Assembly: GCA_022561145.1 (NCBI GenBank)
Contig: JADFRS010000013.1
Location: 5,846-41,225 of the forward strand
DNA length: 35,380 bases
DNA from: Gemmatimonadota bacterium
GTDB taxonomy: Bacteria; Gemmatimonadota; Gemmatimonadetes; Longimicrobiales; Gaopeijiaceae
Reading direction: 5' to 3'
This document shows, piece after piece, positions 28,192 through 35,380 of the stretch; positions within the stretch are counted from its first letter, which is position 1, and each line of letters opens with the position of its first letter. A model generated the notes under the pieces. That model did not search any database and had not been told where the DNA came from. It was given only the letters and a program-made list of their open reading frames with translations. The translations under genes and the position numbers were made by a program.

Positions 28192-30600
28192 ATGGAAACG
28201 CTACTTCACGACGTTCGGTTCGCCTTGCGGGGCTTGGTGCGCAACCCGGGGTTCACCTCGGTTGCCGTCGCGTCGCTCGCCCTCGGAATTGGTGTCAACA
28301 GCGCCATGTTCGGCAGCGTGTACCAAGTGCTCATGCGCCCGTTGCCATTCTCCCATCCCTCACAGTTGGTCGAGATTCGGCTTGAACCCGAGCGTGCCGC
28401 CTCCAAGGCGACTCTGGCACGGCTGTGGACCAGGCTCGACCGGGTCGACGACGTGGCCGGGTGGGCGGGCTGGGCATTCACTCTGACCGGGACCGCCCAA
28501 GCCGAGCGCCTCTCCGGCGTGCGCGTCACGGCGAATCTGTTCACCGTCCTGGGCGTCGAGGCCGAGTACGGACGTACCGTCATGTTCGAGGATGGGGAGC
28601 CCGGGGCCGAGCGCGTCGTCACGCTCAGCCACGGTCTCTGGACACGTCTCTACGGTTCGGATCCGGACGCGGTCGGTCGCAGCATTACGCTGGACGGCGT
28701 GCAACACATCATCGTGGGTGTCATGCCGGAGGCCTTCGCTTTCCCCTCGATCAAGGCGGCGATCTGGGTGCCCGACCCGCTCGACACAGCGGACGACGCC
28801 GACTTCGATGCGCCCTATTTGCAACTCGTCGCCCGACTGGCGAGCGGTGCAACGGGGGCGCAAGCCCTCGTGGAGCTCAAGCGGGTGAGCGTGGAACTTC
28901 GGAGCGCATTCACCGGCTACTCACCGAGCTTCGGGAACAGGGCCACGGTCCGGCCCATCCGTGAAGCGCTGGTCGGCGAGACGCGCACGGCGCTGCTCGT
29001 GCTCTTCGGTGCCGTGGGCTTCGTCCTGCTCATCGTGTGCGCAAACGTCGCGAATCTGCTGCTCAGCCGGGCTGCCGTCCGCCGCAAGGAAATCGCTGTG
29101 CGCACGGCGCTCGGAGCGCCCCGGGGACGGGTCGTCCGGCAGTTGCTCACCGAGAGCGTGTGCCTCGCATCGGTCGGCGGCGGACTGGGTCTCCTGCTCG
29201 CCTTCTGGGGCACCGAACTCCTCGGCTCTGCCCTACCGGCGGATCTTCCCGGCATTCAGGATATCGGTGTCGGGCGTGAGGTGCTCGTCTTTACGCTGGT
29301 CGTATCGGTGCTGGCGGGTATCGTCTTCGGGCTGGCCCCGGCCCTTCAGTCGTCGGACGTGGTCGTTCGCGAGACGATGGGAATCAAACGAAAGGGCACC
29401 GGCTCGGAGAGCGGTGGAGCCAAGAACGTCCTGAGCATCATTCTGATCGCCGAGGTCGCGTTGGCGCTGATTCTGGTGACCGGCGCCGGGCTCATGGTCC
29501 AGAACTTCTGGCGCCTGAGTTGCATCGACCCCGGCTTCGACGCGACCGGAGTCCTCACCATGCGGCTTTCTCCGGCGGAGGCCCAATACGCGAGCCCTCG
29601 CGAGCTCAGCGAGTATTGGGATCGCATCCTGCGCGATGTGCGACTCACACGCGGGGTGGCGTTGGCGGCCGCAGTGGAGGTGCTGCCCCTCGAGGAAGCG
29701 CGGAGGGCCGTGGGCGGCCTCGAGATCGAACGGGGCCCTCCCCTCGAATCCGCGGCTTCGCCGGTGGAGTGGCACATAGTGACACCAGACTACTTCGAGG
29801 TGCTCGCGATCCCAGTAGGAACCGGGCGAGTGTTCACCGAGCGAGATGGGTCGAGCACCGAACGAGTGGCCGTGGTCAGCCGCAGCTTCGCCCGGCGTTT
29901 TTTCCAGGAGGAGGAGCCACTCGGCCGGCACATTCGGTCGAATTCAGACCCGATCGGAGCTTGGAGCACGATCGTCGGCGTCGTGGGCGACACTCATGAC
30001 CAATCTGCCGATGGCGAGCGTCACGACCGGGTCTACCGGCCCCTCACTCAGAACCCGGTGGCGAGCATGGCTCTCACCCTACGCACGATGGGCGATCCTC
30101 ATCTGCTCACGGCGAGACTCCGGGAGGTGATTCGGGCGGTGGATTCCGAAGTGCCGATCTCGTCCGTGCGAACCTTGGAGGAGTTGCTGGAGGACTCCGT
30201 GTCGCAACCACGGCTGCTTGCCCAGCTCCTCGCGGTCTTCGGGGCGCTGGCCGTGCTTCTTGGTGCAATTGGGATCTATGGAGTGACGTCGTTTGCCGTC
30301 AGCCACCGTCGTGCCGAAATCAGCGTTCGGCTCGCGGTCGGCGCGGAGACGGGCTCGGTTCTTTGGCAGGTCATGAGGGAGTCCCTCGAGTTGGTCGGCA
30401 TTGGCTTGCTCTTGGGCGTTGGCGGTGCCATCGCGCTGACACGCATTCTGGCTAGTCGGCTCTACCAACTCGACCCGACGAGCCCCCTGGCCCTCGGCGC
30501 TGTCGCCGTGGTCCTCTGTGTGGTCGGCGCGCTGGCCGCATACTTCCCCAGCCGGCGAGCGAGCCGCTCTGATCCGGCCGACGTGTTGCGCGGTGACTAG
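28192..30600 (+). CDS. ADOP-type ABC permease (MacB/FtsX-like), intact
   Basis: An 802-residue permease with the full duplicated plan: N-terminal DVRFALRGLVRNPGFTSVAVASLALGIGVNSAMF (first helix), a periplasmic MacB core (about 50-245), a first FtsX domain (TALLVLFGAVGFVLLIVCANVANLLLSR, then helices to about 400), a middle helix (ILIAEVALALILVTGAGLMV), a second periplasmic core and a second FtsX domain ending RRASRSDPADVLRGD. The N-terminal PadR-linked prefix domain is absent, so it is the short ADOP form, and no PadR or ATPase gene is adjacent. MacB-type relatives couple cytoplasmic ATP hydrolysis to export or lipoprotein/envelope work; the cargo here is unknown. The ATG has no clear Shine-Dalgarno. 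Confidence 0.93.
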   Translation: METLLHDVRFALRGLVRNPGFTSVAVASLALGIGVNSAMFGSVYQVLMRPLPFSHPSQLVEIRLEPERAASKATLARLWTRLDRVDDVAGWAGWAFTLTGTAQAERLSGVRVTANLFTVLGVEAEYGRTVMFEDGEPGAERVVTLSHGLWTRLYGSDPDAVGRSITLDGVQHIIVGVMPEAFAFPSIKAAIWVPDPLDTADDADFDAPYLQLVARLASGATGAQALVELKRVSVELRSAFTGYSPSFGNRATVRPIREALVGETRTALLVLFGAVGFVLLIVCANVANLLLSRAAVRRKEIAVRTALGAPRGRVVRQLLTESVCLASVGGGLGLLLAFWGTELLGSALPADLPGIQDIGVGREVLVFTLVVSVLAGIVFGLAPALQSSDVVVRETMGIKRKGTGSESGGAKNVLSIILIAEVALALILVTGAGLMVQNFWRLSCIDPGFDATGVLTMRLSPAEAQYASPRELSEYWDRILRDVRLTRGVALAAAVEVLPLEEARRAVGGLEIERGPPLESAASPVEWHIVTPDYFEVLAIPVGTGRVFTERDGSSTERVAVVSRSFARRFFQEEEPLGRHIRSNSDPIGAWSTIVGVVGDTHDQSADGERHDRVYRPLTQNPVASMALTLRTMGDPHLLTARLREVIRAVDSEVPISSVRTLEELLEDSVSQPRLLAQLLAVFGALAVLLGAIGIYGVTSFAVSHRRAEISVRLAVGAETGSVLWQVMRESLELVGIGLLLGVGGAIALTRILASRLYQLDPTSPLALGAVAVVLCVVGALAAYFPSRRASRSDPADVLRGD

Positions 30601-31979: not shown

Positions 31980-32945
31980 TCAGCGCTGTCGAGCACGCCA
32001 CCGCTCCACCGCGGGATGCAGAGGAATGGGGGCGTCGTCCAAACCACTCAGGTCGATCTGCCCGGCCATCGGATGGACTCGCTCAAGCTCGTTCAGCTCA
32101 TCCCGAAAGATGTCCAGGAGGTGGAACACGACCTCATCGTCCAGGTCTGCCCGTGCGACCACCCAGTTCATGAGCGACAGCGTCGGGAGCGGTCGATCCA
32201 CTCCTGGATACGCACCCGCCGGGATCTCGCCCATGGCGTAGTAGGGGTGCTCCACCCGCAACGAGTGCACCGAAGCCGAATCCAGCGCCACGAGCCGAAT
32301 TCCACCGGTGGTGGTCGCGTCGAGCACCGAAGAAGCCGGGTATCCGACCGAGATCAGCGCTGCGTCGATGGCTCGGTCCTTCAAGGCCATGGCCAACTCG
32401 GCAAACGAAAGAAAGCGCTCGTCCACATCGTCGTAGGTTATCCCCGCCGATGCGAGGATCTGGCGTGCCATCTGCTCGGTACCGCTCCCTGGTGGACCCA
32501 CGGCCACGCGCTTGCCGCGAAGGTCAGCCAGGCGCTCGATGCCGGACCTGGGCGTGACCATCAGGTGGCTGAGGTTGGGATAGAGCGGCGCCAAGATCCT
32601 GAGATCCTCGAACGCCTCCGGAAAGGTCTCACCACCGTGGTAGGCCTCCCAGATGGTCACAGGCAGAGCGAACGCGAGGTCCATTTGGCCGTTCTTTAGC
32701 CGATTGATGTTCTCGACCGACCCGCCCGTAACCTCGGCCGTGTATTGACGGAGTGGGTCTCGCGCGGAGAGTCTGCTCGCGAGCGCACCGCCGATGGGAT
32801 AGTAGATGCCCCCCGTACCGGCTGTGCCGAGGCTGAGGAACTCGACCCTCCCGGCGCCATCGCCGGCGCAGGCGCTCGCCAGCAAGGCCGCAGCCACCGT
32901 ACCCACCAGCAGTGCCTTTCGTCTGATCGAACGCGCCATATGCAT
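31980..32945 (-). CDS. TAXI-family TRAP-type solute-binding lipoprotein
   Basis: A 321-residue exported binding protein. The signal RRKALLVGTVAAALLASACAGDG ends in a lipobox (ASAC). The mature domain starts with FLSLGTAGTGGIYYPIGGALASRL, the TAXI hallmark block, then YTAEVTGGSVENINRLKNGQMDLAFA, LADLRGKRVAVGPPGSGTEQMARQIL and DAALISVGYPASSVLDA. TAXI proteins deliver organic acids or similar solutes to a fused DctQM-type membrane permease. No such permease gene is in this window, so the partner must be outside or unlinked. ATG 32945 or 32939 may start it. Confidence 0.93.
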   Translation of the reverse strand: MHMARSIRRKALLVGTVAAALLASACAGDGAGRVEFLSLGTAGTGGIYYPIGGALASRLSARDPLRQYTAEVTGGSVENINRLKNGQMDLAFALPVTIWEAYHGGETFPEAFEDLRILAPLYPNLSHLMVTPRSGIERLADLRGKRVAVGPPGSGTEQMARQILASAGITYDDVDERFLSFAELAMALKDRAIDAALISVGYPASSVLDATTTGGIRLVALDSASVHSLRVEHPYYAMGEIPAGAYPGVDRPLPTLSLMNWVVARADLDDEVVFHLLDIFRDELNELERVHPMAGQIDLSGLDDAPIPLHPAVERWRARQR

Positions 32946-33074: not shown

Positions 33075-34094
33075 GTGGGCAAGGTGCTCAACGACAGCGC
33101 GGCGCACAGAGTGACCCTGCTTCTGCTCGTGGCGGGCTTGGCGTTCGCCCCACCGGTCGTCCATGCTCAGGATCAAAAGGGTGATGGAGTCACGGTGGAT
33201 CTCGAGGTCATCGACGGCGACTCGGGTCAGCCTGTCGAGAACGTCGTCGTGCGCATCCCGAAGCTGGGCACCTACGTGCTCACCGACTCACTCGGGCGAA
33301 CGCAGCTCGTCGACGTCGAAATCGGACGCTTTCGATTGGTCCTCACGCGAATGGGCTACGAAGCCAAGCAGGGTGAGTTCACGATCGATCGGTCCGGCTC
33401 GTTCCGTATCGCCCTGACCCCGGTGCTCGTACGTACCGACGCTGAGCCGGGCGAGATCATGGGCCGCGTGATCGATCCCGAAACGCGAGAGGGGATCGCC
33501 GGGGCAGAGGTGACGGTGGCGGGTGTGCTCCACCGTGCGACGGATGAGCAGGGATGGTTCACGGTCGAGCTCGTCCCTGCCGGAGCGCACGTAATCGAGG
33601 CCGAGTATCTGGGCCGGCAGACGCTGCGCGATTCGATCTTCGTGCGCGACGGTCAAACGCTCGAGGTCGAGCTCACACTACCCGTCGAAGCGATCGAGCT
33701 AGCGGGGATCACGGTCACGGCACACGCCCGCTTCCTCAGCCGCGCTGGATTCTTCAGACGCCAACGGGCGGCACCGGCGTTCAGGGGCCGCCAGTGGACC
33801 GCTGAGGAGCTGGCGGACCGCGACCCGTACTACCTTCAGCACGTACTCACCGAAGTCCCCGGTATTCGGCTGACGGCGCCGGGAGCGTTAAGGGGCACCA
33901 ACGTCGGCCTGGTAGGAAGTAGAAGATGCAGGCTCAAGGTCTTCGTGGATGACTTCGCGATGGACGACTGGTTCGACCTCGACGGTATCGACCCGCGAAG
34001 GGTCGCAGCCATGGAGCTCTATCACGGCTCCACCCTACCCAGCCGATATATCGGCGAGTGCGGGGTCATCCTCGTCTGGCTGAAGCGCCGGTAG
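33075..34094 (+). CDS. Exported carboxypeptidase-regulatory-like/TonB-plug-like protein without barrel
   Basis: 339 residues from GTG 33075 (CGGAG upstream); longer frames to 32745 overlap the divergent gene and are rejected. After a signal peptide (VTLLLLVAGLAFAPPVVHAQ) come two carboxypeptidase-regulatory-like domains (VDLEVIDGDSGQPVENVVVRIP; IMGRVIDPETREGIAGAEVTV). The C-terminal 110 residues resemble a TonB-receptor plug: FRGRQWTAEELADRDPYYLQHVLTEVPGIRL, CRLKVFVDDFAMDDWFDLDGIDPRRVAAMELYHG, ending CGVILVWLKRR. No beta-barrel follows. Such stand-alone plug-like proteins are frequent in Gemmatimonadota as far as I know. The role is uncertain, probably in the cell envelope. Confidence 0.8.
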   Translation: MGKVLNDSAAHRVTLLLLVAGLAFAPPVVHAQDQKGDGVTVDLEVIDGDSGQPVENVVVRIPKLGTYVLTDSLGRTQLVDVEIGRFRLVLTRMGYEAKQGEFTIDRSGSFRIALTPVLVRTDAEPGEIMGRVIDPETREGIAGAEVTVAGVLHRATDEQGWFTVELVPAGAHVIEAEYLGRQTLRDSIFVRDGQTLEVELTLPVEAIELAGITVTAHARFLSRAGFFRRQRAAPAFRGRQWTAEELADRDPYYLQHVLTEVPGIRLTAPGALRGTNVGLVGSRRCRLKVFVDDFAMDDWFDLDGIDPRRVAAMELYHGSTLPSRYIGECGVILVWLKRR

Positions 34095-34105
34095 TAGCTA
34101 CCCGC

Positions 34106-35380
34106 ATGACGCCTACGCCACAATCCCCCAAGACCCCGCCTCCGCCCTCCGCCTCGCAACTCGCCGGCGCGCTCGAGGATCTGGGCGTGACACACGCGGT
34201 CGGCCTGCCCGACACGTCGCTGGGCATGCTCTTTCGTCGGCTGGAGGACGGGATGGCGATCCGGACCGTTGGCGTAACCCGTGAGGGCGAGGCATTCGCC
34301 GTGGCGGCGGGGCTGTGGATGGGAGGGGCGACGCCGGTGGTTCTGGTGCAGAACACGGGACTGCTCGAGGCGGGGGATGCGTTGAGAGGCACCGCAGTGC
34401 GCATGGGGGTACCGCTGTTGTGCTTGGTCTCTTACCGCGGCTACGCCAAGATGACTGCGGCGGGTCTGCATCCTTTCACCGGCCCAGCCACCGTGGATGT
34501 CCTGACCCGGCCTGACCTCGACTCGGCTGCGCTCCTCACGGAGCCGACACTGACGGCGTGGGGCATCCCGAGCTTCACCTACGCCTCGACTGAAGACCTG
34601 CCACGCGTGGCCGAAGCCTGGGATCACGCCCACCGTGAAGGGCGCCCTGTCGCCCTCCTTCTGGCCGGGCGGCTGGCCGAAGCAGGGCGAGCGGTCGGTG
34701 CGTTTGAAGCGTCGGTGCGCGGCGAGTTGCCGCCGGTCACGCAGGCAGCGGCGTTCGACGAGATGGTGCGCCAGCATCCGAAGCGCAAGATGAGCGACCT
34801 GTTCAGCGCCGCGTATCGCAAGCGCACGCTCGCGGTGGCGACGTTGTGGGCGACCTGCGGGTTCATCCAGTACGGGCTGTCGACGTGGCTGCCGACGATC
34901 TACAAGAACTTCTATCACGCGCCGTTGCAGCTCGCGCTGAACCTCGCGGTGATCGGCTCGGTGATGGGCGTGCTCGGGTCGCTGGCGTCGGCGCTGCTCG
35001 TCGACAAGCTCGGCCGCAAGCCGGTGATCGTGTGGTCGTTCGTGCTGTGCGCGCTGTCGCTGGCGTTCGCGGGCTTCTATCACGCGTCGTCGGTGTATGT
35101 CGTGTCGATCTTCTGCTCGCTGTCGCTCGGGTTGATGGCGTCGGGGTTCATTACCGCGTACGTCTATACGCCGGAGCAGTATCCGACGAGCATCCGCGCG
35201 TCGGGCTGCGGGCTCGGCAGCGCATGGTTGAAGATCGCGTCGTTCGTCGCGCCGATGGTGGTGCCGCACGCGATCATCGGCGGCAACCTCGCGCCGGCGC
35301 GCTTGCGCGGTCTGCGCACGAAAGCCTGGCGCGAGCAGCTGCTGCGCGCGCTGGAATCGCTGCGCGGCGCGGACGGCCGC
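34106..35380 (+). CDS. ComD-like TPP decarboxylase alpha subunit joined in frame to foreign sequence
   Basis: ATG 34106 opens a frame that stays open for 425 codons to the window edge. Residues 1-185 are a TPP-binding PYR domain: LAGALEDLGVTHAVGLPDTSLG, TVGVTREGEAFAVAAGLWMGG, PVVLVQNTGLLEAGDALRGTAV. This matches the alpha subunit of sulfopyruvate/phosphonopyruvate decarboxylases (ComD), normally about 170-190 residues and followed by a beta-subunit gene (ComE). Here it instead runs on, from about GRLAEAGRAVGAFEASVRGE, into half an MFS transporter. A natural protein of this build is very unlikely. The ComD part is trusted, the fusion is not. It starts 11 bases after the plug-like gene. Confidence 0.7.
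   Translation, partial: MTPTPQSPKTPPPPSASQLAGALEDLGVTHAVGLPDTSLGMLFRRLEDGMAIRTVGVTREGEAFAVAAGLWMGGATPVVLVQNTGLLEAGDALRGTAVRMGVPLLCLVSYRGYAKMTAAGLHPFTGPATVDVLTRPDLDSAALLTEPTLTAWGIPSFTYASTEDLPRVAEAWDHAHREGRPVALLLAGRLAEAGRAVGAFEASVRGELPPVTQAAAFDEMVRQHPKRKMSDLFSAAYRKRTLAVATLWATCGFIQYGLSTWLPTIYKNFYHAPLQLALNLAVIGSVMGVLGSLASALLVDKLGRKPVIVWSFVLCALSLAFAGFYHASSVYVVSIFCSLSLGLMASGFITAYVYTPEQYPTSIRASGCGLGSAWLKIASFVAPMVVPHAIIGGNLAPARLRGLRTKAWREQLLRALESLRGADGR
34680..35285 (+). other. C-terminal half of an MFS transporter, Burkholderia-like, probably a chimeric join
   Basis: From about 34680 the frame encodes a TM6-TM7 loop (HPKRKMSDLFSAAYRKR), TM7 (VATLWATCGFIQYGLSTWLP), TM8-TM9 with a motif-A-like VDKLGRKPVIVW, and TM10-TM11 (YTPEQYPTSIRASGCGLG, IASFVAPMVVPHAI). 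The N-terminal six helices are missing. Codons turn to a run of gcg, tcg, ctg, cgc and atc unlike the neighbouring genes. After about 35285 the MFS sense ends and a third, basic segment (LRGLRTKAWREQLLRALESL) reaches the edge. Sequence and codon use look beta-proteobacterial. Confidence 0.7.

Follow-up and report, generated by a model that had tools for sequence, protein, structure and literature searches.

The window, that is the whole stretch of 35,380 nucleotides that was analysed, comprises bases 5846-41225 of contig C28 (41,225 bp), and its last base is at the same time the last base of this contig. The assembly is a fragmented MAG of 4.12 Mb in 252 contigs, with a completeness of 89% and a contamination of 3.5%. 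At the right end, ORF 34058-35380 runs through 441 codons as a single frame, which is still open at its 3′ side when the window ends. Pfam and NCBIfam searches with this ORF revealed TPP_enzyme_N / sulfopyruvate decarboxylase alpha and, after it, MFS_1 with its C-terminal half only. The following features were found along the frame, in this order:

34106 to 34665, + strand: ComD-like gene (sulfopyruvate/phosphonopyruvate decarboxylase alpha-type, TPP_enzyme_N), based on TIGR03845, PF02776, orthologues and composition
34666 to 35299, + strand: foreign 634 bp fragment of a Burkholderia cepacia complex MFS transporter gene, 95-97% nucleotide identity
34666 to 34674, + strand: joint 1, with the 9-base word CGGGCGGCT common to the contig and the Burkholderia gene; identity is at background just upstream
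35291 to 35299, + strand: joint 2, the last 9 bases GCGCCGGCG common to the contig and the Burkholderia gene, inside the palindrome GCGCCGGCGC
35300 to 35380, + strand: 81 bp tail of 77% GC and Burkholderia-like composition, open in the same frame and ending with the contig

Beyond joint 1 the foreign stretch therefore amounts to 715 bp in all, up to the contig terminus. The gene directly 5′ of comD (33102-34091, + strand) encodes a carboxypeptidase regulatory-like domain and a C-terminal part without assignment. Other genes in the window include a solute-binding protein resembling NMT1 (31980-32945, − strand; PF16868, E=1.5e-67), a type that accompanies TRAP-TAXI transporters, and a MacB/FtsX-type permease of 802 residues with two MacB_PCD matches (28192-30600, + strand). 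Near the left end, at about 500-1400 on the − strand, lies another TPP-dependent enzyme (TPP_enzyme_N and TPP_enzyme_M).

The ComD-like gene is native to the contig, and reading the sequence places its natural start at the ATG at 34106. Its last few codons and its stop codon are missing. The encoded part matches TIGR03845 with E=1.1e-20 and PF02776 with E=2.4e-9, and in this respect resembles ComD and the phosphonopyruvate decarboxylases among the TPP enzymes. It differs from these in that the 3′ end of the gene is cut by the joint and in that the TIGR03845 score of 74.1 lies below the curated cut-off of 147.95. Since the score thus falls short of the equivalog level, the gene is better described as a member of a related subfamily than as a proven ComD. 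Orthologues with 51-58% identity are present in six genomes of the same family, and a search of the plasmid collection with the comD part gave no match.

The comD genes of the relatives allowed us to see how the locus should continue. By protein alignment, comD of five relatives stops at about the codons of joint 1: their ends, with motifs such as RPVALVLTQAL before the stop codon, align with RPVALLLAGRL at the joint. In the sixth relative, masked bases disturb the comD end. Each of the six family relatives examined has a gene for a ComE-like beta subunit after comD, and in the five with a clear stop this gene starts within about 65 bp; for one of these subunits the family was assigned by a separate search. 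When searching the assembly of the contig itself for the comE orthologue, including as a possible true continuation on another contig, we did not find it. The sole ComE-like match there is a 36% paralogue on contig C243, beside a distant ComD paralogue. This second ComD/ComE-like pair (C243, 8586-9484, − strand) is adjacent and in the same orientation, and is 34-38% identical to comD/comE here. The regular position of comE behind comD in the relatives, together with the absence of the orthologue here, indicates that the contig breaks where comE should begin. The native continuation is lost, and foreign DNA stands in place of comE at the contig end.

The best Burkholderia matches to 34666-35299 are ungapped over all 634 bases. 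Comparing one genome per species, identity is 97.0% to B. lata, 96.1% to B. aenigmatica and about 95% to B. metallica, B. arboris and others. Across Burkholderia loci it ranges from 86 to 97%; in Cupriavidus and Ralstonia it is about 80% or less. In the plasmid collection, the fragment is 90-95% identical to Burkholderia records of megaplasmid size and to one small plasmid. None of the matches is exact, which makes a strain or species of the B. cepacia complex that has yet to be sampled the probable source.

In Burkholderia, the gene is an ordinary stand-alone MFS gene, and its frame is shared by the fragment. Its nearest NCBIfam subfamily is that of aromatic acid/H+ symport (TIGR00895), although it scores below the cut-off of this model. 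Only the interior of the gene is found here: the stop-to-stop frame has 476 residues, of which the fragment covers about 233-444. Both gene ends are missing, that is the N-terminal half and the last residues. Compared to B. lata, the substitutions at the three codon positions, counted in the frame of the window, number 4/1/14. This dominance of the third position suggests a gene under selection in Burkholderia and not a decaying insert.

The foreign character of this stretch is also seen in its composition. We scored it with a third-order Markov model, for which 40 other contigs of the assembly and flanking DNA from Burkholderia served as training sets. The comD part is host-like, with a score of −0.099 against a host mean of −0.079, and the MFS part, at +0.081, lies close to the Burkholderia mean of 0.075. 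The highest score among 713 host segments as long as the MFS part is 0.014, so that none comes up to it. The tail, at +0.170, scores higher than all 2900 host segments of its length and thus looks foreign too. As DNA, the tail has no convincing match in plasmids, phages, 12 and then 65 Burkholderia genomes or its own genome, nor did it match in 250 genomes of the Burkholderia family, a search run without a positive control. Searches with the tail as protein, and of viral contigs with a degenerate pattern of it, also gave no convincing match. Its best matches (about 80% over 55 bp) were rejected as a source and taken as chance in GC-rich DNA.

We also asked how much Burkholderia DNA the assembly contains. 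No segment scoring as high was found in the 40 further contigs sampled, so that the foreign stretch looks isolated and not part of a bulk contamination. The assembly lacks the remaining genes of the Burkholderia neighbourhood: besides the fragment, the Burkholderia flanking DNA gave only matches of 65-70% and a single one of 84% over 43 bp, for which distant homology and chance would account, and a wider Burkholderia contamination of the bin was rejected. The most Burkholderia-like composition in the sampled contigs is that of the first 634 bases of contig C20, at the contig start. This segment has no match in the plasmid collection and possibly is just unusual in composition.

Both joints are sharp. 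Outside 34666-35299, identity to Burkholderia drops on either side to the background level over just a few bases, and depending on the reference the first joint lies within 34666-34674 or up to about 34683. These results agree to a large extent with the first-pass annotation of this DNA, which had described one frame leading from a decarboxylase alpha subunit into the middle of an MFS transporter, and then into a segment that does not continue the transporter. The frame and its domains confirm this description. The transporter had been said to begin in its TM6-TM7 loop, and indeed the fragment starts at residue 233, just past the PESPRWL motif, in the central loop after TM6 (helices assigned from the motif and not from a topology prediction). 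A change in codon choice at the first joint was likewise recovered, as GC3 rises from 0.79 in the comD part to 0.92 in the MFS part. The two in-frame joints are both present, but the second is located at 35299 and not, as proposed, near 35285.

All the data taken together make it almost certain that the right end of the contig is a chimeric terminus, an artefact of DNA joining. The identity of the foreign fragment, both joints and the loss of the downstream gene could be demonstrated directly: Burkholderia MFS sequence of high identity lies beside a comD of the family type, and the foreign stretch lies at the end of the contig, its sharp joints falling within genes. In the most plausible course of events, the real sequence would stop in the last codons of the ComD-like gene, which should end there and be followed by the ComE-like gene. 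A 634-bp internal piece of a B. cepacia complex MFS gene would then have been joined on, in frame by chance (1 in 3), and a second short foreign piece, the tail, after it. For a frame that stays open through both joints, ordinary chance suffices.

As for the joining step, the 9-base words shared at both joints would suit the joining of separate molecules during library preparation or amplification, or a strand switch at short matches in these steps; an over-permissive merge of contig ends may have had the same result. Overlaps of 9 bases are too short for the usual k-mer misassembly. Amplification is known to yield chimeric molecules (PMC6436528), and Burkholderia is listed among the contaminants of DNA kits and reagents (PMC4228153). 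The Burkholderia DNA may have come from the same sample, the reagents or the sequencing run, and the sampled community is an equally possible source. The locus thus resembles the chimeric or contaminated contig ends of metagenome and amplified-genome assemblies, in which DNA of a contaminant genus sits at the terminus with short shared words at the joints, with the difference that here the joining step is deduced. In the literature, we found no paper on this contig itself.

Some observations speak against an artefact. The 715 bp of foreign DNA exceed one short read, and several reads or one long read must therefore have supported them. The shortness of the 9-base overlaps and the isolated position of the stretch among the contigs sampled count on the same side. 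The length of the foreign stretch, the contiguity of the DNA in the assembly and the open frame would also fit a recent genuine horizontal transfer, in which a Burkholderia transporter gene fragment was inserted at the comD end, with a contig break following shortly. However, the fragment is internal, with neither end of the gene, and the 715 bp past joint 1 contain no recognised gene of a mobile element. Further arguments against it are that the fragment is 95-97% identical to a distant lineage and has kept the composition and codon-position pattern of Burkholderia, and that a second, unrelated joint follows within 634 bp, both joints lying at the contig terminus. Moreover, the expected comE is missing, not displaced. 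That a gene fragment was transferred very recently is unlikely, and we give the horizontal transfer as a whole very little credence. Slighter still is the probability of its particular form, a very recent transfer into the host chromosome with an in-frame fusion to the decarboxylase subunit, in an otherwise unsampled strain.

The unbroken frame of 441 codons could also be read as a true ComD-MFS fusion protein, a coupled decarboxylase and transporter, but we consider this barely conceivable. Its MFS portion amounts to no more than half a transporter, without the N-terminal half and the original C-terminus, and ends in an unrelated tail. Intact comD orthologues stop at about the joint, and the Burkholderia MFS gene normally stands alone. 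We searched 39 genomes (its own and 38 relatives), 11 of which gave a match, and none of the inspected comD loci of relatives is fused. The same fusion in related genomes, the result that would have spoken for a real protein, was thus absent from the relatives inspected. We conclude, in line with the view already taken from the sequence, that an artefact or contamination is likelier than a new protein, given the close Burkholderia source, the sharp joints at a contig terminus, the loss of comE and the unfused relatives.

The consequence for a chimeric terminus is one of data hygiene only. The contig should lose its last 715 bases, and the predicted ComD-MFS product has no place as a fusion in protein databases. 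When composition is checked together with the expected gene order, a contig that is clean elsewhere can be recognised as foreign at its end.
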